The position numbers were made by a program, and so were the translations under genes. Shown here one piece after another: positions 25,984 to 35,055 of a stretch of DNA of 64,000 nucleotides; within the stretch, counting starts at the first letter, position 1, and each line of letters begins with the position of its first letter. The stretch spans positions 372,001 through 436,000 of the forward strand of contig JANZNS010000004.1 of the NCBI GenBank assembly GCA_025153445.1, written 5' to 3'. The notes under the pieces were generated by a model. It was given only the letters and a program-made list of their open reading frames with translations, ran no database searches and was not told where the DNA came from. Origin of the DNA: Marinobacter sp. BGYM27 (lineage in GTDB: Bacteria > Pseudomonadota > Gammaproteobacteria > Pseudomonadales > Oleiphilaceae).

Positions 25984-26235
25984 TCAACTATTTTTATCAC
26001 GGCTATCTTGGAGCGCCTGCGCTATATTCAGTTTGACGCGACGGAAATAATCCTCATTAACTTGCTGACTGGAGTGCTTTTGCAGCACGGTCGCGCTGTT
26101 GCGAAGATTATTCACAAGCGCGCGACAGTGACGACACATCATCAGATGCACCTTCACTGAAAGTCGCTGGCCTGGGCTCAGCTCCCCATCAATATAGTCA
26201 CTGGCCACGACGGCCAGATCACGACACATCAGCAT
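25984..26235 (-). CDS. Putative zinc-finger anti-sigma factor
   Basis: An 83-residue cytoplasmic protein without a membrane segment. The N-terminal half has Cys4 and the H-x3-C-x2-C motif in VHLMMCRHC (about residues 30-38), the ZAS (zf-HC2) fold that binds the sigma factor. It overlaps the ECF sigma gene by 7 bp, so the two are translationally coupled, as usual for a sigma and its inhibitor. The absence of a membrane helix suggests a cytoplasmic signal such as redox state, as in RsrA, but the signal is unknown. ATG 26235 follows GGGAGACAGG. Confidence 0.8.
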   Translation of the reverse strand: MLMCRDLAVVASDYIDGELSPGQRLSVKVHLMMCRHCRALVNNLRNSATVLQKHSSQQVNEDYFRRVKLNIAQALQDSRDKNS

Positions 26236-26861
26236 TTGCCTGTCTCCCGAAACGTTTCCACCATCAAAAATATCCGCTGCCGGGCCCGGTGCAGTATCAC
26301 CCTCAGGTTAGATGCAGAAACTCCCAGGATGTTACAGACGTCTTCTGATTTATGCTGATGCGCCTCGTATAGCATTAATGCCGAGCGATGCTGCTCCGGC
26401 AATGCCGTCAGGTGCTTGTCGAGACAAGCCTTGAGCGCACCGCTTTCCAGCCATTGCTCGGCCGATTCGGTAGTTTTCAAGCGCGGCGGCTCGGACCAGG
26501 TGCCCCGGGTCCGGAACCGCGAATCCAGTGCCGGCTCCAACGGTTCCGAAAAATCCATCGCGATCTCCCGCCCCGCTTTACGCAGCCCGTCTTTTGCCTG
26601 GTTGGCCACAATCCGGTGCAGCCAGGTTTTCAGACTGGCACGCCCCTCAAATGATTGAATTGCCTGAACCACCTTGATCCAAACCTCCTGAACAGCATCC
26701 TCGGCAGAGGCAGGATCAAGATAAAAGCGCGCCACCAATAACATCGAAGGCGTGTAGGCACGCACCGCCTCATCAAATGCAGCCTGCTCTCCGGCCTGCA
26801 GACGCTTGATCAGCGAGGATTCATCACCACTTCTGGCTGACGATTCACCTGTTTTCACCAT
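26229..26861 (-). CDS. ECF sigma-70 family RNA polymerase sigma factor
   Basis: A 210-residue sigma factor. Region 2 is at about 25-95 (FDEAVRAYTPSMLLVARFYLDPASAEDAVQEVWIKVVQAIQSFEGRASLKTWLHRIVANQAKD) and region 4 at about 145-205 (LPEQHRSALMLYEAHQHKSEDVCNILGVSASNLRVILHRARQRI). A longer-than-usual linker (about 50 residues) joins them. It pairs with the overlapping anti-sigma gene and reads away from the DUF547/radical SAM operon. The intergenic region has two matching ECF-type promoter motifs back to back, suggesting autoregulation and control of the operon. Confidence 0.9.
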   Translation of the reverse strand: MVKTGESSARSGDESSLIKRLQAGEQAAFDEAVRAYTPSMLLVARFYLDPASAEDAVQEVWIKVVQAIQSFEGRASLKTWLHRIVANQAKDGLRKAGREIAMDFSEPLEPALDSRFRTRGTWSEPPRLKTTESAEQWLESGALKACLDKHLTALPEQHRSALMLYEAHQHKSEDVCNILGVSASNLRVILHRARQRIFLMVETFRETGKC

Positions 26862-26947
26862 ACTCTAGCGCTTCCTCTCGTTATAAAAATGCTGCACGCT
26901 GACGCGGCAACATACGGCCTCGAACCATCGAAAACCGGCCTGAGGTG

Positions 26948-26973
26948 GACGCTGTTTTTCTTCAAAAGTTCAC
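26948..26973 (-). promoter_or_regulatory. ECF-type promoter candidate for the sigma gene
   Basis: Minus strand GTGAAC (26973-26968), 16-bp spacer, CGTC (26951-26948). AAC in the -35 and CGTC in the -10 with 15-17 bp spacing is the general ECF pattern. It implies a leader of about 80 bp before the sigma ATG. Confidence 0.55.
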
Positions 26974-26974
26974 C

Positions 26975-27000
26975 TGTAACAAATAATCCGCCGATGCGTC
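26975..27000 (+). promoter_or_regulatory. ECF-type promoter candidate for the DUF547/radical SAM operon
   Basis: Plus strand TGTAAC (26975-26980), 16-bp spacer, CGTC (26997-27000). Same spacing and same core letters as the promoter on the opposite strand, whose -35 is only one base away. It implies a leader of about 90 bp before the DUF547 ATG. Confidence 0.55.
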
Positions 27001-27098
27001 TCTGTTAGTAGATGCACAGTGATGGATGCATCCTCTAACGAAAAGCTGACGTACAAAAGAAGCATGACCAACACCTGACGTATCCTGGAGACCTGTTG

Positions 27099-27923
27099 AT
27101 GACGTCTGCAATCGGTACCACCCTGACCGCTGTCGCACTGATGATATTGAGTATAGGCGCAGCCGGCGCAACCTCCTTCGACCACAGTCACGGTCGCTGG
27201 AATGGCCTTCTGCAAGCTCACGTCAGCTATATTGAAGACGGCATTGCGTCGACGGTTGATTATGATGGCTTCGCCAAAGACGAGAAGGCGCTCGACCGTT
27301 ATCTCGGCTCGCTCTCGGCCGTGTCCCTGCAAACGCTTGATGGTTGGCCGAAAGAACAGCGGCTGGCGTTTCTGATCAACGCCTACAACGCCTTTACTGT
27401 TAAGCTCATCCTCAACCATTATCCGGGCCTCGAGTCGATTCGCGACATTGGCAATATTTTTCAGTCGCCCTGGTCACGCTCGTTTTTCACGCTGCTGGGA
27501 AAAGAACGCAGCCTGGATGAGCTGGAACACGAGATGATCCGCGAGTGGTTCAACGAGCCGCGCATTCATATGGCAGTGAACTGCGCCTCTGTCGGCTGCC
27601 CAGCGCTGGCCGCGTCGGCCTACACCGGCGATTCGCTGGATGCTCAGCTAGACAAGGCGGTGGAGCGCTTCTTGTCCGATTCGACACGCAATCGTTATCT
27701 CTCTGTGACAAATCGGTACGAAGTCTCCTCTATCTTTGACTGGTATGGCGATGACTGGAATCGCGATAGCAGCTATCCCGGTGGCGTAAGGGCGTTTCTG
27801 AATGAGCATATCGGCCTGATGGCTCAAGCGAAGGTGCCTGACAAGGCCACTTTGAACAAGGCTGAAATCAAGTTCCTGGACTACGACTGGGCACTGAACA
27901 CGCAAGAATATTCAAGGGAGTAA
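27099..27923 (+). CDS. DUF547 domain-containing exported protein
   Basis: A 274-residue protein with a signal peptide (residues 1-23, ending GAAGA). The DUF547 core is recognised from FLINAYNAFTVKLIL (about 92-106), FFTLLGKERSLDELEHEMIR (about 133-152) and HMAVNCASVGCPALAASAYTGDSLDAQLDKA (about 163-193), with two conserved Cys in NCASVGCP. Domain function is unknown; periplasmic location is inferred from the signal. It is first of four tightly spaced genes, ending 2 bp before the radical SAM start. ATG 27099 is preferred to the TTG before it; GGAG lies 8 bp upstream. Confidence 0.85.
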   Translation: MTSAIGTTLTAVALMILSIGAAGATSFDHSHGRWNGLLQAHVSYIEDGIASTVDYDGFAKDEKALDRYLGSLSAVSLQTLDGWPKEQRLAFLINAYNAFTVKLILNHYPGLESIRDIGNIFQSPWSRSFFTLLGKERSLDELEHEMIREWFNEPRIHMAVNCASVGCPALAASAYTGDSLDAQLDKAVERFLSDSTRNRYLSVTNRYEVSSIFDWYGDDWNRDSSYPGGVRAFLNEHIGLMAQAKVPDKATLNKAEIKFLDYDWALNTQEYSRE

Positions 27924-27925
27924 AC

Positions 27926-28888
27926 ATGGCATTTGACTTGGCCAATGCACAGCGTATTCCGGCCGCCGAGCTGGCGACACCGCGCAACCGCGATAGTTGG
28001 ACGCACACCCGGGAGGGTGAGGCGCGCGGTTATATTGATGCGGACCAGCTCAAGGAGCTGTGGATCCATACCGGCACCGCCTGCAACCTTGCCTGTCCGT
28101 TCTGTCTCGAAGGTTCGCACCCCGGCGATGGCCGTATTCCGGGCATGAAACTGGATGATGTGCGCCCGTTTATTCACGAAGCCATCGACATGGGCGTCGA
28201 GCAGTTTTCATTTACTGGCGGCGAGCCCTTTGTGATTCGCGATTTCGTCAACATTCTGGACTACGCCAGCCAGCACCGCCCCTGCTTCGTGCTGACCAAT
28301 GCCACAGATCCATTACTGAAGCGCACACACCAACTGCTGCCGTTGCGCGACAATGCCTATCCGATTCGTTTTCGGGTCAGTCTTGATTTCCCGGATGCGG
28401 CCAAACACGACGTGGATCGCGGCGAAGGAAGTTTTGACAAGGCTCTGGAAGGCATTCGCTGGTTGCACAACAACGGCTTTGCGGTATCCATTGCCCGCCA
28501 GATAGAGGATGGCGAAGTGGCGCCTGAGGTCGAAGCCCGTTTCCGCGCGATATTCCGGGAATGGGGCATCCCTGAAGACCTGGCTTTCACTGCATTCCCC
28601 GATTTCGGCATTCCCGGCTCTGAAGATGGCAGCCCCGAAATTACCGAAGGCTGCATGGACAAATTCCCCACCAAAGAGAGCCGGGCCCACTTCATGTGCA
28701 CCTATACCCGCATGCTGGTGAAACGGGACGACAAAGTCCGGGTGTTTGCCTGCACGCTGGTGGACGACGATCCGGATTACGATCTGGGAAGCACGCTGCA
28801 GGAAAGCATGGACATCCGCATCATGCTCCGTCATCACCGCTGCTTTTCATGTTATCGCTTCGGCGCCAGCTGCAGCGCGCCGGTTTAA
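27926..28888 (+). CDS. Radical SAM protein with auxiliary Cys cluster
   Basis: A 320-residue cytoplasmic enzyme. The SAM-binding [4Fe-4S] motif is C53-x3-C57-x2-C60 (in TACNLACPFC), followed by FTGGEP near residue 100 and the radical SAM half-barrel. The C-terminus has further Cys residues (FMC...FAC...RCFSCYRFGASCS), a SPASM/Twitch-like arrangement for an auxiliary Fe-S cluster, so a modifying reaction on a peptide or small molecule is plausible. No precursor peptide gene was found nearby. It is the second gene of the ECF-linked operon; the substrate is unknown. Confidence 0.88.
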   Translation: MAFDLANAQRIPAAELATPRNRDSWTHTREGEARGYIDADQLKELWIHTGTACNLACPFCLEGSHPGDGRIPGMKLDDVRPFIHEAIDMGVEQFSFTGGEPFVIRDFVNILDYASQHRPCFVLTNATDPLLKRTHQLLPLRDNAYPIRFRVSLDFPDAAKHDVDRGEGSFDKALEGIRWLHNNGFAVSIARQIEDGEVAPEVEARFRAIFREWGIPEDLAFTAFPDFGIPGSEDGSPEITEGCMDKFPTKESRAHFMCTYTRMLVKRDDKVRVFACTLVDDDPDYDLGSTLQESMDIRIMLRHHRCFSCYRFGASCSAPV

Positions 28889-28927
28889 AACTGATGTTAT
28901 TGACCACTTACAGGGACGTCACCACTC

Positions 28928-30331
28928 ATGTCTTTCGCTGAAGCCAGCTTATTCTGGGGATTTCTGGTGGTGTACGGCATTATCATGTATGCCCTCTCGC
29001 CGCGCAGCCGCAATGCAGCCTCGTTCTACAAAGGTGCGGATGACAGCGGCAAGCCCGTGAGTCAGTGGTCACTCACTGCCAGCATATTCATCAGCTGGAT
29101 TTTCGCCAAGTCAGTCACCAATGCCGCGAACCTTGGCGCCGCCTATGGCGTCACCGGAGGGCTGGCATACGCGACTTACTGGCTATCCATTCCGGTTGCG
29201 GGCTATATCATTTATCTGATCCGCACCCAGACCGGCGCCCGCAGTCTTCAAGAGTTTCTGACATCGCGCTTTGGCCGACTCGCTGCGGTCAGCTTCGCCG
29301 CCGCCATTCTGATCCGTCTTTATAACGAAGTATGGAGCAATACCGCGGTGGTGGGCGGCTACTTCGGCCTGCCGGGGGAGTGGCAGTATTATACCGCCGC
29401 GCTGCTGTTTACCGCTTTCACACTGGCATACAGCCTCAAAGGCGGACTTCGGAGTTCGATCTTCACCGATGTTATTCAGGCTGTGGTTTTTGTGTTCTTC
29501 GTGGCTGCGGTGCTATTCCTGATAGTACCTGCCAACGATACCAGCGCATTGCTCAGTGCCGGCGAATTCAAGCTGAACGCCGGCGCCGATCTACTGCTCG
29601 TCGCTGGTCTGCAGCTTTTCAGCTACCCGTTCCACGATCCGGTGCTGACCGACCGAGGCTTTGTGAACAGGGAAAAAACCATGCTGAAAAGCTTCGTAGT
29701 CGCCGGTTTACTGGGCTTCGTAGCGGTCTTCATCTTCAGCCTCGTAGGTGTGCACGCCCAGCTCAACGGCATCGAAGCCAACGGCAATGCCCCGGCTGCC
29801 GTGGGACAGGCGCTGGGCATGACCGCACTCTTCTTTATGAGCGTGGTGATGATGACGTCCGCCGGCTCAACCCTGGACTCCACCTTCACCTCACTGTCGA
29901 AATCGATTGCGGTCGACCTGCCCCAACTAGTCCGCAGTGCTGCGGACAAACTGCCCAGCATGCGTGTAGGCGCCGTGGTAATGGTTGCGTTCGCGATACT
30001 CGGCAACCTGCCAATGTTTGCCGGCACTGACATCCTCAAAGCCACGACCGTGTCCGGCACCATGGTCATGGGGCTGGCGCCGGTGTTTCTGTTTTACGGT
30101 TTCACCCGCTGGTCGCCCTGGAGCTTCCACCTCAGTTTCTGGAGCGGCATCGTGCTCGGGTTGATGCTGGCCATGGGGTTAATTCCTGCCAGCTGGTCAA
30201 TCGGAGAAGGCCATTACGCCGCACTGCTGGGAGTGAATGCCTGGGGGATACTGATCTGCACGACCGGCTTCTTTTTACCGCTGGCGCTGCAGCGTCTGAG
30301 TGGCCGCCACACCGTTTCCACCAACGCATGA
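28928..30331 (+). CDS. Sodium:solute symporter (SSS) family transporter
   Basis: A 467-residue inner membrane protein with about 13 helices of the SSS/APC fold. Recognisable parts are the first helix, the segment WSLTASIFISWIFAKSVTNAANLGA (about 40-64) that lines the ion path, and AYSLKGGLRSSIFTDVIQAVVFV (about 168-190), the SSS signature region. It should drive solute uptake with Na+. The substrate cannot be read from sequence; its place between a radical SAM enzyme and a phosphoesterase-like protein suggests import of the pathway's substrate or recovery of its product. Its stop overlaps the next start (ATGA). Confidence 0.87.
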   Translation: MSFAEASLFWGFLVVYGIIMYALSPRSRNAASFYKGADDSGKPVSQWSLTASIFISWIFAKSVTNAANLGAAYGVTGGLAYATYWLSIPVAGYIIYLIRTQTGARSLQEFLTSRFGRLAAVSFAAAILIRLYNEVWSNTAVVGGYFGLPGEWQYYTAALLFTAFTLAYSLKGGLRSSIFTDVIQAVVFVFFVAAVLFLIVPANDTSALLSAGEFKLNAGADLLLVAGLQLFSYPFHDPVLTDRGFVNREKTMLKSFVVAGLLGFVAVFIFSLVGVHAQLNGIEANGNAPAAVGQALGMTALFFMSVVMMTSAGSTLDSTFTSLSKSIAVDLPQLVRSAADKLPSMRVGAVVMVAFAILGNLPMFAGTDILKATTVSGTMVMGLAPVFLFYGFTRWSPWSFHLSFWSGIVLGLMLAMGLIPASWSIGEGHYAALLGVNAWGILICTTGFFLPLALQRLSGRHTVSTNA

Positions 30332-31272
30332 GCGAGCAACCGGGGCGCAGCTGCCCAATCCATTATCGTTATCAGCCCGAGCGATTGTGCCGTGATCCGG
30401 AGCCGGTAAAAGCCGACGTGCTTTACGTGATTGGCGGGCTATACGGCAACCCGCTGGCACTCGATGCCATTGACGCCATGGCGGCGTCCGAACAGGCCCT
30501 CGGCCGGCGAGTGAAACTGCTGTTTAACGGCGACTTCAACTGGTTTAACGCCGACGAAGACGCTTTCGTCGACGTTAACAACCGCGTGCTTGTGCACGAC
30601 ATTATTCAGGGCAATGTCGAATACGAACTGGCCAACCCCAGTCCGGATGCCGGTTGCGGCTGCGCCTACCCGGACTTTGTCGATAATGGCACCGTCGAAC
30701 GCTCGAACCGGATCATTACGCGCCTGCAAGCCATCGCCTCTCGGCACCCCGGCATTCAGGCATCACTCAGGGCAGCACCACGCTGGCGCTGCCTCTCGTT
30801 TGGCGGTGAAACCCTGCTGATTCTCCACGGGGATCCCGAATCCCTCGCAGGCTGGGGCCTGGCCAGCGAAAACCTGTCCCGCCCGAGTCACCAGCATCAG
30901 CTGCATCAATGGTTTGCCCAAACCGGTGCAACTCTGATGGCGTGCACCCACACATGTCTGCCCGCCTTGTGGCAGCGTCATGACACCTTACTGTCACAGA
31001 CCATCATCAATAATGGTTCGGCAGGCATGGGCAATCTGCATGCCGATCCCCGGGGGCTGATCACCCGCGTTTCCACTATCCCTGCGGACACCGCACTCGC
31101 ATCCGCCCGCCAGGGGGACCTTGAGGTATCGCTGGTGCCGGTCGCGTTTGACGCCCAGGCCTGGGTTGCACGCTTTGACGAGTGCTGGCCGACAGGCAGT
31201 GATGCCGCCATTTCTTACCGGCAAAGAATCCTGAAGGGGACTAAACTTACGGTCGCGGATATTCGTCTGTAA
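30328..31272 (+). CDS. Metallophosphoesterase-like protein with altered metal site
   Basis: A 314-residue cytoplasmic protein of calcineurin-like fold, last gene of the operon. The familiar motifs appear in order but are changed: the first (normally D-x-H-G-N) is GLYGN at about residues 37-41; GD is kept (FNGDFNWF); GNH[DE] reads GNVE; H-G-D is kept (ILHGDPES); and G-H-T-H reads CTHTC. Asp and His of the first motif and the catalytic His of the third are missing, so ordinary two-metal catalysis is doubtful. Cys-rich spots (CGCAYPD, CTHTC) could give a different metal site. It may be a binding or regulatory protein rather than a phosphatase. Confidence 0.75.
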   Translation: MSEQPGRSCPIHYRYQPERLCRDPEPVKADVLYVIGGLYGNPLALDAIDAMAASEQALGRRVKLLFNGDFNWFNADEDAFVDVNNRVLVHDIIQGNVEYELANPSPDAGCGCAYPDFVDNGTVERSNRIITRLQAIASRHPGIQASLRAAPRWRCLSFGGETLLILHGDPESLAGWGLASENLSRPSHQHQLHQWFAQTGATLMACTHTCLPALWQRHDTLLSQTIINNGSAGMGNLHADPRGLITRVSTIPADTALASARQGDLEVSLVPVAFDAQAWVARFDECWPTGSDAAISYRQRILKGTKLTVADIRL

Positions 31273-31574
31273 GACATGAGCGAAAACGGCGAGAAGAGGG
31301 GCCGCTTAAAGCCGCTGAATACCGGCCAGGCGACGGTTTCAACGCCCTCACAGGGGCGCAAACTGGTTGCGTAAACGGCCTGTAGCAACCAACGCCATTT
31401 GATTTTTATTTCGTGGTCTATATAATTACAACCCTAAAGATTGAAGCCAGCATAACTTAATTCGCTAATTTTCAACGAGTTATGTTTGGGCAAGACCTTC
31501 AATCCAGCGGCTCCGCATTAGTAGACGCCGCGTAATTGAATTTAACTCTAAATGACTGAGTGACCAAGACCGCT
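31273..31574. other. Upstream region of ectA
   Basis: About 300 bp with no gene. It holds a sigma-70-like promoter (listed separately) and about 145 bp of leader before the ectA start. No operator was identified. Confidence 0.5.
31399..31426 (+). promoter_or_regulatory. Sigma-70-like promoter for ectA
   Basis: TTGATT (31399-31404) and a perfect TATAAT (31421-31426) with a 16-bp spacer, in an AT-rich stretch ahead of the ect operon. Confidence 0.6.
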
Positions 31575-32096
31575 ATGACAAACGAAGGATCAAATACCAC
31601 CGCCATCACCCTTCGCACACCGTGCAAGGATGATGGCTTCCGGCTTTACCAGTTGGTAGAACAGTGCCCACCACTGGATCCCAACTCGATCTACTGCAAC
31701 TTGCTGCAATGCAGCCACTTCGCCGAAACCGGTGTTGCCGCTGAAAAGAACGGTGACTTGGTCGGCTTTATCTCCGGTTATATTCCCCCGCAGCAACCCG
31801 AGACGGTTTTCGTCTGGCAGGTTGCCGTCCACGAAAACGGACGAGGCCAAGGCCTTGCAAAACGAATGCTCAAAGCCATCGTGGCCCGTGATGTGTGTCA
31901 GAACGTCACACACATGGAAACGACGATTACTGAAGATAACGAGGCGTCCTGGGCATTGTTTCGCTCGTTTGCCCGTGATCTCGGCGCCGAGCTGACCTAT
32001 TCCGAGCATTTCGAGAAAGGTACCCACTTCGGTGGCAACCACGACTCGGAATTCCTGCTCCGGATAGGCCCCTTCACGAAGCCAGTCAACGGCTAG
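31575..32096 (+). CDS. ectA: L-2,4-diaminobutyrate acetyltransferase
   Basis: A 173-residue GNAT enzyme that acetylates the gamma-amino group of L-2,4-diaminobutyrate, giving N-gamma-acetyl-DABA, the ectoine precursor. The EctA pattern is clear: PPLDPNSIYCNLLQCSHFAETG (about 35-56), the acetyl-CoA loop VHENGRGQGLAKRML, and HMETTITEDNEASWALF. ATG 31575 gives the usual EctA N-terminus; a GTG five codons earlier is possible. It is followed by ectB after 135 bp. Confidence 0.95.
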   Translation: MTNEGSNTTAITLRTPCKDDGFRLYQLVEQCPPLDPNSIYCNLLQCSHFAETGVAAEKNGDLVGFISGYIPPQQPETVFVWQVAVHENGRGQGLAKRMLKAIVARDVCQNVTHMETTITEDNEASWALFRSFARDLGAELTYSEHFEKGTHFGGNHDSEFLLRIGPFTKPVNG

Positions 32097-32231
32097 GGAT
32101 TTCGCGGCTACACAAAGTCCGTAAACCCTGACCCGACTGGCACTATCACTGGCAGCCGCCACCTGAATGCGACCGAATCCGTTCACTGGCACTGCCTTAA
32201 CCTCGAACCTGACATGCTAAGAGGCAAGACA

Positions 32232-33500
32232 ATGGAAATTTTCAAGTCGACCGAATCAGAAGTACGTGTTTATTCACGAGCGTTCCCCGTGATCTTCAAC
32301 CGCGCGAAAAACGCGCATCTTTACGCTGAAGATGGCAAGGCGTACCTCGACTTTCTGGCGGGTGCAGGCTCGCTGAACTACGGTCACAACAACGACATCC
32401 TGAAAAAGGCACTGCTTGAGTACATCGAAAACGACGGTGTCAGCCAGGGTCTCGACATGTACACCACAGCCAAGCATGACTTCATGGAAGCCTACAAGAA
32501 GTACATTCTTGAGCCTCGTGATCTGGACTACAAAATGCAGTTCACCGGCCCTACCGGTACCAACTGTGTCGAAGCGGCCATGAAGTTGGCACGCAAGGTT
32601 AAAGGTCGTGACAGCATTATTTCGTTCACTAATGGTTTCCACGGTGTATCGCTGGGTGCGGTCGCCGCTACCGGTAACAAGCACCACCGCGGTGGTGCCG
32701 GCGTCGCACTGGGCAGCGTCAGCTTCATGCCGTACGACGGTTATCTGGGCGATGATGTCGACACCATCGAAATGATGGACAAGATGCTGACTGACAACTC
32801 ATCAGGCATCGATCTGCCAGCGGCTGTCATCGTTGAGGCGGTGCAGGGTGAAGGTGGTCTTAACGCGGCCCGTGCCGAATGGCTCCAGAAGCTGTCCAAG
32901 CTGTGCAAGAAGCACGACATTCTGCTGATTGTTGATGACATCCAGGCAGGTAATGGCCGCACCGGCCAGTTCTTCAGCTTTGAAGAAGCCGGCATCAAGC
33001 CTGATATCGTCACCGTATCCAAGTCACTGAGTGGCTATGGTCTGCCGATGGCACTGGTACTGTTCAAGCGCGAGTTGGACGTGTGGACATCAGGTGAGCA
33101 CAACGGCACCTTCCGGGGTAACAACATGGCCTTCGCTACCGCCAGGGCCGCGCTGGAGACCTACTGGAAAGACAACAGCTTCGCCGATGAAGTGAAGAAG
33201 AAGGCCGGTATCCTGAATGCAGGCCTGAAAGCGGTCAGCGACCAGTTCAAGGGCCAGTTCAAGCTCAAGGGCCGTGGCATGATGCAGGGCATCGCCTGTC
33301 GTGATGGCGATCTGGCGGGCAAGATTTGTGCTCGCGCCTTTGAGAAGGGCCTGATCATTGAAACAGCCGGGCCTGACGATGAAGTCGTCAAATGCCTGAT
33401 GCCGCTGACCATCAGCGATGAAGATCTCCAACAAGGTCTGGACTTGCTCAAGCAAAGTGTTGAAGAGATCATGAAAGAAGACATGAGCCAGGCATCCTGA
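32232..33500 (+). CDS. ectB: Diaminobutyrate-2-oxoglutarate aminotransferase
   Basis: A 422-residue PLP enzyme (class III aminotransferase) that converts aspartate semialdehyde and glutamate to L-2,4-diaminobutyrate. EctB features: [15 protein letters not shown] (about 38-52), [21 protein letters not shown] (about 107-127), [15 protein letters not shown] (about 234-248) and the PLP lysine in [15 protein letters not shown] 32232 is chosen; the six residues before it lack family similarity. The gene that normally follows, ectC, is missing; ask comes 112 bp later. Confidence 0.95.
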
Positions 33501-33515
33501 GGCAGTTGCAGGATG

Positions 33516-33565
33516 GGGAGAGCCAGCCAACGGCCGGGACGCCAGGTGGCGCAAGCGGCTCTCCC
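33516..33565 (+). repeat. Intercistronic hairpin between ectB and ask
   Basis: GGGAGAGCC (33516-33524) and GGCTCTCCC (33557-33565) are perfect inverted arms enclosing 32 bp that include a smaller CGCC-AGGT-GGCG hairpin. It fills the gap where ectC would be expected. It has no U-tract. Confidence 0.6.
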
Positions 33566-33612
33566 GCTCAGAATACTCCCGGCGCCCATTCAAGCGACCG
33601 AAGACCAGGATC

Positions 33613-35055
33613 ATGACTAGCCAAGACCATACAGTAGAGAAAATTGGCGGTACGTCCATGAGCGACTTTACCGCCGTTCGTGACAATATCGTTGTTGGCG
33701 ATCGCAGCGCCGACGAACTGTACCAACGCATTTTTGTGGTATCCGCCTATAGCGGCGTAACGGACGAGTTGCTGGAGCACAAGAAAACCGGCGAGCCCGG
33801 CGTTTACGCCCTGTTTGCAGATGCCGAGTCAGATTGGGCCTGGGGGGACGACCTCACCAAACTGACCCAGTTCCTGATCGACATCAACAAGCAGTTGTTT
33901 GATGACCCGATGCTCAAACAGCAGGCCGACCAGTTCATTATGGACCGCGTGGAAGGCGTCCGTGGCTGCCTGATCGATCTGCAGCGTTTGTGCTCCTACG
34001 GCCAGTTCCAGCTCGAAGAACATCTGCTGACAGTGCGTGAGATGCTCGCCGGTATCGGTGAAGCACACAGTGCATTCAACACCACGCTCAAACTGCAGGC
34101 TGAAGGCATCAACGCCCGCTTCGTCGATTTGACCGGGTGGCGCGATAACGAGTTGCTGCCGCTGGATGCCAAACTGAAGCAGGCGTTTGACAGCATTGAC
34201 CTAACCCGGGAAATGCCGATCTGTACCGGCTATGCCCAGTGTGAGGAAGGGCTGATGCGCACCTTCGATCGCGGCTACAGTGAAATGACCTTCAGCCGTG
34301 TGGCGGTTATTACCGAAGCCCGTGAAGCGATTATTCACAAGGAATACCACCTGAGTTCGGCTGACCCCAAGATCGTCGGTGAAGATAAAGTGGTACCGAT
34401 GGGTCGGACCAACTATGACGTCGCTGACCAGCTTGCCAACCTGGGTATGGAAGCAATCCACCCACGGGCGGCAAAGGGGCTGCGCCAGAATGATATCCCG
34501 CTGCGGGTCAAGAACACTTTCGAGCCGGAACATACCGGTACGCTCATCACCCGCGACTATGTGAGCGAGAAGCCACAGGTGGAAATCATCGCCGGTCGCA
34601 AGGGTGTATTTGCCATCGAAGTGTTTGATCAGGACATGCAGGGTGACCCGGGTTCCGATCGCCGGATTCTCGATGTACTGGCACGGTTCAAGATCCGCTG
34701 CATCAGCAAGGACACCAACGCCAACACCATCACCCATTATGCGGACAGCACACTGAAGCACGTGAAGCGTGTCGTCCGGGCACTGAAGGAAGAGTTCCCG
34801 AACGCAGAAATCTCTACCCGTAAAGTGGCGCTGGTGTCTGCTATCGGCAGTGACATGCAGGTTCCGGGCATTCTGGCCAAGACTGTGACGTCACTGGCTG
34901 AAGAAGAGATCAGCGTGCTGGCTCTGCACCAGTGTATGCGCCAGGTGGATATGCAGTTCGTGATTGATGAAGATCATTACGAAAAGGCGATCGCCAAGCT
35001 GCACGCCACACTGATCGAGCCACATAACCACGAATACGCCATCGTTGCCGCCTGA
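33613..35055 (+). CDS. ask: Aspartate kinase, ectoine-cluster type (Ask_Ect)
   Basis: A 480-residue aspartokinase producing aspartyl phosphate, the entry to aspartate semialdehyde. The N-terminal kinase motif is VEKIGGTSM; an insert typical of Ask_Ect follows (YALFADAESDWAWGDDLTKLTQF). Two C-terminal ACT domains (about 325-475) carry FAIEVFDQDMQGDPGSDRRILDVL and VSAIGSDMQVPGILAKTVTSLAEEEISV. Ask_Ect enzymes found in ect operons are relatively insensitive to feedback, ensuring precursor supply. Co-transcription with ectAB is likely. ATG 33613 has AGGA just upstream. Confidence 0.93.
   Translation: MTSQDHTVEKIGGTSMSDFTAVRDNIVVGDRSADELYQRIFVVSAYSGVTDELLEHKKTGEPGVYALFADAESDWAWGDDLTKLTQFLIDINKQLFDDPMLKQQADQFIMDRVEGVRGCLIDLQRLCSYGQFQLEEHLLTVREMLAGIGEAHSAFNTTLKLQAEGINARFVDLTGWRDNELLPLDAKLKQAFDSIDLTREMPICTGYAQCEEGLMRTFDRGYSEMTFSRVAVITEAREAIIHKEYHLSSADPKIVGEDKVVPMGRTNYDVADQLANLGMEAIHPRAAKGLRQNDIPLRVKNTFEPEHTGTLITRDYVSEKPQVEIIAGRKGVFAIEVFDQDMQGDPGSDRRILDVLARFKIRCISKDTNANTITHYADSTLKHVKRVVRALKEEFPNAEISTRKVALVSAIGSDMQVPGILAKTVTSLAEEEISVLALHQCMRQVDMQFVIDEDHYEKAIAKLHATLIEPHNHEYAIVAA

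Follow-up and report, generated by a model that had tools for sequence, protein, structure and literature searches.

The window analysed here is a 64,000-nucleotide stretch of the Marinobacter sp. BGYM27 genome (contig JANZNS010000004.1), and its positions 25984-31272 hold an operon with a divergent pair of regulatory genes. The plus-strand genes encode a DUF547 protein, a radical S-adenosylmethionine (SAM) protein referred to below as rSAM, a sodium:solute symporter (SSS) and a relative of the calcineurin-like phosphoesterases (MPE), in that order. The minus-strand genes encode an extracytoplasmic function (ECF) sigma factor and a short zinc-finger anti-sigma factor (ZAS). We propose, with a probability of roughly 0.7, that in Marinobacter an arsenosugar-type pathway takes the form of this operon, and that rSAM does the job of ArsS, the known radical SAM enzyme of the arsenosugar pathway. 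The data are best explained if rSAM is a separate family, distantly related to ArsS; the two were never found together in one genome among those searched. An earlier interpretation made from the letters of the window (the sequence-only reading) had suggested, as a possible role, that a small molecule is taken up and modified, which fits the evidence. It also knew of no characterised pathway with this set of genes, and that statement does not hold as it stands. Genome by genome, rSAM tracks TIGR04283 and TIGR04282, the glycosyltransferase families named 'arsenosugar biosynthesis' by NCBI; in some relatives it lies among these genes, and both DUF547 and an oxidoreductase gene designated C0 are found inside ArsS clusters.

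Distribution of rSAM, ArsS and the glycosyltransferases

Among 97 related genomes, 39 carry rSAM and 35 carry ArsS; no genome has the two together, against an expectation of 14.1. Presence of rSAM was called at E<1e-40, a threshold set after scores were seen to drop from 142 to 34 bits, and ArsS was called as TIGR04167 over its cut-off; a TIGR04167 search found no ArsS in the window's genome. One Marinobacter-type genome shows its rSAM match as two overlapping pieces (G057:C1:3133639-3134579), which were counted once. TIGR04283 accompanies both enzymes, being over its cut-off in 71/74 genomes with rSAM or ArsS versus 1/23 of the others (G071, 81% complete). The three exceptions hold matches of 146-160 bits, located in the rSAM cluster in G067 and near ArsS, on the same contig, in G021 and G077. 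In the window's own genome, TIGR04283 (261 bits, cut-off 182) adjoins TIGR04282 (167 bits, cut-off 134) at locus L145.

The pattern recurs in a phylum-wide draw of 348 genomes, each at least 90% complete, with a few genomes common to both samples. With rSAM called over 300 bits (two matches near 122 bits were excluded), 37 genomes carry rSAM, 78 carry ArsS and none carries both (8.3 expected). At E<=1e-38, TIGR04283 is found in 35/37 rSAM genomes and 76/78 ArsS genomes, 28 and 72 of which, respectively, hold a match over cut-off. Kinship among the genomes of a sample inflates the number of apparently independent cases; this repeat is the stronger point. One genome, G402, has two rSAM and two TIGR04283 matches.

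Relation of rSAM to ArsS

The rSAM protein (320 amino acids) matches Radical_SAM at 5.5e-18 (66 bits, cut-off 29.5), and its best match, at 85%, comes from Marinobacter mangrovi. A search of solved structures returned seven matches to its radical SAM core at E<=0.01, the best at 9.9e-7; MPE gave nothing under E 0.8, and DUF547 nothing under 0.2. Nine cysteines are invariant in 14 aligned homologues: the three of the CX3CX2C motif at residues 53-60, shared with the core of ArsS, and six in the C-terminal part (C243, C258, C276, C306, C309 and C316). The extra C-terminal cysteines mentioned in the sequence-only reading are thus real.

In a profile-profile comparison of 14 rSAM and 10 ArsS sequences, the alignment spans 276 columns and runs as far as the C-terminus, with a probability of 98.9 and 21% identity. 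The three core cysteines fall in register and so do four C-terminal pairs, C276/C265, C306/C304, C309/C307 and C316/C315, within the motifs YxC or FxC, CxxC and SC. A MoaA control, with members named by eye, reached a probability of 98.2 but over just 132 core columns, stopping before the C-terminus. On these sequence comparisons, rSAM is probably homologous to ArsS through its C-terminal part. Our confidence in the proposal rests mainly on the genome comparisons.

Gene clusters in relatives

Some relatives of rSAM in other genomes lie inside clusters of the arsenosugar type, at the place where ArsS would be expected. At L103 (G067), a distant relative of rSAM lies between an ArsM-like methyltransferase gene and an arsenate-reductase-like gene (144 bits, cut-off 174), in the same run as TIGR04282, an MTAP-like gene and TIGR04283; all of these named neighbours score under their cut-offs (TIGR04282 116 of 134 bits, TIGR04283 160 of 182, and 180 of 263 for the ArsM model NF008823). 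The order TIGR04282-TIGR04283-ArsM-like-rSAM-C0 is found at L189, with TIGR04283 over cut-off and TIGR04282 at 101 of 134 bits. Several of the TIGR04282, ArsM-like, MTAP-like, TIGR04283 and C0 genes accompany rSAM at L103, L189, L190, L191, L194, L195 and L196. Within the phylum-wide draw, rSAM lies at most 4 kb from a TIGR04283 match in 8/37 genomes, the match being over cut-off in G194 and G344 and at 160-172 bits in G375, G413, G429, G216, G219 and G295. Inspection of 20 of the 37 rSAM loci of this draw, in which linked loci were favoured, displayed rSAM in 18, the choice of reading frames having missed it in the other two; within 6.5 kb of it stood an ArsM-like gene in six, an MTAP-like gene in four and TIGR04282 in five, and most of the others had none of these. 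With relatives adjoining TIGR04282, ArsM-like, ArsC-like, MTAP-like and TIGR04283 genes, the view of the operon as an unknown system was dropped.

The company kept by ArsS is similar in part. In 10 of 11 ArsS loci (L146-L156), TIGR04283 and TIGR04282 stand by ArsS, and single loci hold DUF547 after C0 (L155), an MTAP-like gene (L152) or an ArsM-like gene (L156). A direct exchange is seen in G013, where ArsS lies beside TIGR04283 and no rSAM match is present. At a separate place in this genome (L178), a ZAS/sigma pair faces, one after another, C0, DUF547, SSS and MPE. The arrangement matches the operon of the window, except that C0 is retained and rSAM alone is gone.

On a Roseomonas plasmid, genes for a PhnD-type ABC importer and for an MPE relative come after rSAM, in a run that includes TIGR04282, FAD/VTT genes, two genes for DUF547 and a second gene of the radical SAM type. 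The second radical SAM gene of this arsenosugar-like cluster (L188 6640-8019, and L219) has TrsS as its best match, at 100 bits (cut-off 490), and DoxX and chalcone-isomerase-like genes are also present there. Three genomes of the phylum-wide draw without rSAM or ArsS carry C0-TIGR04282-TIGR04283 beside an apparent ABC importer (L220, L222 and L223; G143, G428 and G347), with one gene for an ATPase (31-32% to aapP), one permease-like gene and one exported-like gene, and at L221 (G178) TIGR04282 lies near similar importer-like genes. These loci may represent an import-only form of the pathway. The other five TIGR04283-only genomes showed neither an rSAM nor an ArsS match by blast near the glycosyltransferase; two of the five carry another CX3CX2C protein. 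In 4/9 of the TIGR04283-only genomes, TIGR04283 itself was masked by the choice of reading frame.

Conservation of the Marinobacter locus

A scan of the GTDB genome collection gave, as the best 80 of 109 rSAM relatives, 67 Marinobacter-type and 13 other loci, and each gene was counted only in loci with enough flank for it. In the Marinobacter-type loci, SSS is found downstream of rSAM in 58/66, MPE in 58/65 and ectA in 63/64. The sigma gene lies upstream in 35/65, and just 2/66 have DUF547 in the 1.5 kb upstream. Over the same distance C0 is present in 64/66, with DUF547 in between in two of those. The other 13 loci have neither C0 (0/13), SSS (0/11), MPE (0/10) nor sigma (0/10) beside rSAM, and four hold an ArsM-like gene. 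Recurrence of all genes together, one of the checks proposed with the sequence-only reading, is therefore found for rSAM, SSS and MPE, and less often for DUF547 and sigma: the set is more than a chance assembly, and its exact composition is not fixed. A different SSS protein (35% identity) stands beside rSAM at L114 9934-11316 (G020), where MPE is retained. On plasmid pHP-187 of Marinobacter adhaerens HP15 (L187 9001-9937), a match to rSAM, broken into two pieces and not annotated, lies near a sodium:solute symporter gene.

The C0 protein, of 734 amino acids, joins a membrane domain of the VTT (TVP38) type to an FAD oxidoreductase resembling MerA, and is present in 73/74 of the related genomes with rSAM or ArsS versus 4/23 others; its use as a pathway marker is a feature of this analysis and not of the literature. 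It is missing between sigma and DUF547 in the window, and a relative (56% identity) is encoded outside the operon at G000:C17:141786-143936. This gene (L169 8724-10913) adjoins hemB-like and ppk-like genes, named by eye, and these neighbours are found again in further genomes. DUF547 directly follows C0 at L003, L054, L155, L178, L183 and L184, of which L155 is an ArsS cluster. The genome of L183 (G085) has no ArsS, rSAM or TIGR04283, so that C0 and DUF547 also occur as a pair outside pathway genomes.

The sigma factor, its anti-sigma factor and the promoter

The sigma factor (Sigma70_r2, 1.2e-16; TIGR02937, 79.8 bits, cut-off 42.9) has regions 2 and 4, and its partner has the HX3CX2C zinc finger, which places the two among the ECF sigma/ZAS pairs. 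The call of a zinc-finger anti-sigma factor in the sequence-only reading is borne out by matches to zf-HC2 (2.6e-9, 37.4 bits, cut-off 22.2) and NF052368 (55.5 bits, cut-off 50) and by a C..H-x3-C-x2-C motif that is intact in 37/37 homologous stretches. As in pairs of the ChrR and RsrA type, the sigma and anti-sigma genes overlap (by 7 bp) and face a conserved bipartite promoter; in contrast to ChrR and RsrA themselves, this ZAS scores under the cut-offs of both families.

The promoter pattern TGTAAC-N15-GNGTC[TCA] occurs in 31/37 of the intergenic regions that separate sigma from its neighbouring gene and is missing from six. Its spacer is 15 bp every time, with 13-18 permitted, base shuffles give the pattern in a mean of 0.065 regions, and the copy ahead of DUF547 is the sole one on both strands of the window. 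The 37 regions share descent and include one genome twice (L029 and L114); spacers vary while both elements persist, L178 included. This sigma factor probably reads the TGTAAC-N15 promoter. A weaker candidate, a possible -35 element for the sigma gene's own promoter on the minus strand, is found in 28/37 regions as GGAACTT or TGAACTT, with GGAACTT in most relatives.

Weighing the arsenosugar reading

Several observations weigh against an rSAM that does the job of ArsS, and the first concern the protein itself. In the core only, rSAM scores 40.0 bits with the ArsS model TIGR04167 (cut-off 300), and its best NCBIfam model is that of the Rv1681 family (NF049973, 105.3 bits, cut-off 380), matched over residues 43-217 only. 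We know of no function for the Rv1681 family. For the 'MC' pair, the cysteines of the two families (C258 in rSAM and C250 in ArsS) are offset by three residues; C243 of rSAM and C102 and C132 of ArsS are unpaired in the alignment. The MoaA core, the one control used, aligns almost as surely as ArsS does. In a tree of 32 rSAM, 10 ArsS and five MoaA proteins (the last named by eye) with one TrsS-like protein, rSAM stands on branches distinct from ArsS and does not come out as a single group (3 changes), although it may have one origin; long branches join, leaving rSAM unplaced relative to ArsS, and no descent is claimed from this tree. Since the ArsS cut-off failed, the best model is Rv1681 and the tree gives no position, rSAM is not filed as ArsS. 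Simple membership in any NCBIfam family, ArsS and Rv1681 included, was likewise rejected: of the 59 families with a match at E<=1, 25 were listed, and rSAM stayed under the cut-off of each of these. The sequence-only reading had proposed to reject a new system if rSAM fell in a characterised subfamily. No such membership was found among those 25, but rSAM would be standing in for an enzyme that is characterised.

Distances of this kind would also be expected if rSAM acted in the same TIGR04283 pathway but formed a different C-As bond or transferred a different group, so that the product would not be a standard arsenosugar. Related chemistry exists: ArsL, a radical SAM enzyme of arsinothricin biosynthesis, forms a C-As bond by transfer of a 3-amino-3-carboxypropyl group, and its gene clusters with those of ArsM and a transporter (PMC8552651). 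According to the same paper, ArsL has 428 amino acids and three conserved cysteines, against the 320 amino acids and nine invariant cysteines of rSAM, and its partners differ. The missed ArsS cut-off, the distance in the tree, the differently placed cysteines and the 28/39 rSAM genomes without an ArsM-like gene all speak for a different bond. Nonetheless, TIGR04283 and TIGR04282 accompany both rSAM and ArsS, C0 and MTAP-like genes occur with both in some loci, four C-terminal cysteines are in register with those of ArsS, and a mutual exclusion so strict suggests one shared step. A different bond thus seems to us unlikely.

The counts that carry the arsenosugar reading have limits of their own. 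The genomes are related, so that the counts are not independent and their significance is overstated. In the phylum-wide draw, 9/120 TIGR04283 genomes have neither rSAM nor ArsS, and 2/37 rSAM genomes have no TIGR04283. The assignment of TIGR04282 and TIGR04283 to arsenosugars is a curated name. C0 stands between ArsS and TIGR04283 in only 3/11 ArsS loci (L147, L152 and L155), SSS and MPE were found in none of these 11, and some Marinobacter-type loci keep rSAM without SSS, MPE or sigma.

ArsM was not found in the window's genome (G000) in searches with an ArsM-like protein (E<=1e-15) and NF008823 (E<=1e-25). Among the related genomes, ArsM-like genes are present in 11/39 with rSAM versus 24/35 with ArsS, none over the NF008823 cut-off. 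The ArsM-less Marinobacter pathway might therefore handle no arsenic at all, acting on another small molecule, for example one containing phosphonate or sulfur, with family names that mislead; the PhnD-type importer beside rSAM in Roseomonas would agree with this, and so would the lack of an ArsM-like gene in 11/35 ArsS genomes. Against a pathway devoid of arsenic, ArsM-like genes adjoin rSAM or lie less than 2 kb from it in eight loci (L101, L103, L189-L191 and L194-L196), L103 holds the arsenate-reductase-like gene, and ArsS is reported to adenosylate arsenic (PMC12159101). We regard the non-arsenic explanation as improbable. Because no ArsM was found, import of the substrate is proposed for the window's genome. 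At E<=1e-25 with NF008823, ArsM-like genes occur in 4/30 SSS genomes versus 31/44 other genomes with rSAM or ArsS, a contrast confounded by one clade. This pattern, the Roseomonas importer and the importer-flanked TIGR04283 genomes suggest that import can replace early steps of the pathway.

A last alternative is that the ECF/ZAS pair, rSAM, symporter and phosphoesterase are unrelated neighbours held together by synteny near ectoine genes. The near-constant ectA shows that the whole block is syntenic, and in the other loci rSAM occurs without SSS or MPE. Two distributions speak against this: SSS (E<=1e-100) is present in 30/97 related genomes and MPE (E<=1e-20) in 31/97, and all 30 and all 31 belong to the 74 with rSAM or ArsS, including G013, which has no rSAM. 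Furthermore, the order rSAM-importer-MPE recurs on the Roseomonas plasmid with an unrelated importer. A chance neighbourhood is accordingly very unlikely.

Proposed pathway

In the arsenosugar-type pathway that we favour, rSAM would cleave SAM and join the 5'-deoxyadenosyl group to trivalent methylated arsenic, creating a C-As bond. The adenosyl product would lose adenine, after which the TIGR04283 and TIGR04282 enzymes, whose genes lie at another place in the genome, would extend it. The sodium symporter may import a methylated (or phosphorylated) organoarsenical, which the phosphoesterase relative may trim, and DUF547 is a candidate exported accessory protein. The ECF sigma/ZAS pair would activate the operon through the TGTAAC-N15-GNGTCT promoter in response to a signal for which a metalloid is now the obvious candidate; the sequence-only reading had suggested a redox or metal signal.

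A broader proposition, whose odds we judge to be about even, is that C-As bonds are also made by a second and so far unrecognised family of radical SAM enzymes, found in Proteobacteria that carry the arsenosugar glycosyltransferases without ArsS and range from Marinobacter to Roseomonas, an alphaproteobacterium. Most Marinobacter, being devoid of ArsM, would then feed the pathway with imported methylated or phosphorylated organoarsenicals, taken up by a sodium symporter whose expression an ECF sigma factor switches. An alternative ArsS-type enzyme is not described in the titles and abstract openings among the literature matches listed, a search with subscription journals mostly outside its scope. 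Among the matches listed, TIGR04283 is absent, and DUF547 with an operon yields only an Arabidopsis co-expression paper. If correct, the proposition would supply the missing adenosyl-transfer enzyme for many bacteria that have arsenosugar glycosyltransferases and no ArsS, widen the range of organisms that may make arsenosugars and provide a second enzyme for the study of radical C-As bond formation. If import also holds, common marine bacteria would be linked to methylated marine arsenic, and a first pathway context would be at hand for the symporter, the phosphoesterase and DUF547.

Features of the locus

A check of the open reading frames of all genes returned exactly the coordinates and spacing of the sequence-only reading (Table 1). 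Its view of the plus-strand genes as one operon agrees with their intergenic gaps of 2, 39 and -4 bp and with the ECF-type promoter of fixed spacing ahead of them.

Table 1. Genes and promoter elements at positions 25984-31272 of the window
Feature	Position	Strand	Basis
ZAS, short cytoplasmic zinc-finger anti-sigma factor, 83 amino acids, C4-H30-x3-C34-x2-C37	25984..26235	-	zf-HC2, NF052368, motif conservation
ECF-type RNA polymerase sigma factor, 210 amino acids	26229..26861	-	Sigma70_r2, TIGR02937
Possible -35 element TGAACTT, candidate promoter of the sigma gene	26966..26972	-	GGAACTT-like in relatives; weaker
ECF-type promoter TGTAAC-N15-GCGTCT, between the divergent genes	26975..27001	+	Conserved in 31/37 regions
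DUF547 protein, signal peptide at the N-terminus (by eye); alternative starts TTG 27096 and ATG 27099	27096..27923	+	PF04784
Radical SAM protein (rSAM), proposed alternative ArsS	27926..28888	+	Radical_SAM; ArsS profile match; genome and cluster contexts
Sodium:solute symporter family transporter (SSS), 467 amino acids	28928..30331	+	PF00474
Calcineurin-like phosphoesterase relative (MPE)	30328..31272	+	27% to L188 protein hitting Metallophos_2

The symporter belongs to the SSF family (PF00474, 1.1e-11, 44.7 bits, cut-off 22.8), and DUF547 matches PF04784 at 2.9e-25 (89 bits, cut-off 27). MPE has no Pfam or NCBIfam match at E<=1, and its L010 homologue likewise has no Pfam match. The metallophosphoesterase kinship claimed by the sequence-only reading rests on an alignment of MPE, at 27% identity, to a Roseomonas 'metallophosphoesterase family protein' (L188) that matches Metallophos_2 at 4.1e-9. 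The metal ligands of calcineurin-like metallophosphoesterases are D-x-H, GD, GN-[HD/E], H and H. In 35/35 aligned homologues of MPE, G-x-Y replaces the first D-x-H, and the GD, GN, H and H ligands and a C-G-C motif are invariant.

Downstream of the operon, ectoine-type genes occupy positions 31560-35055 of the window (ectA, ectB and an aspartokinase gene, named by eye).

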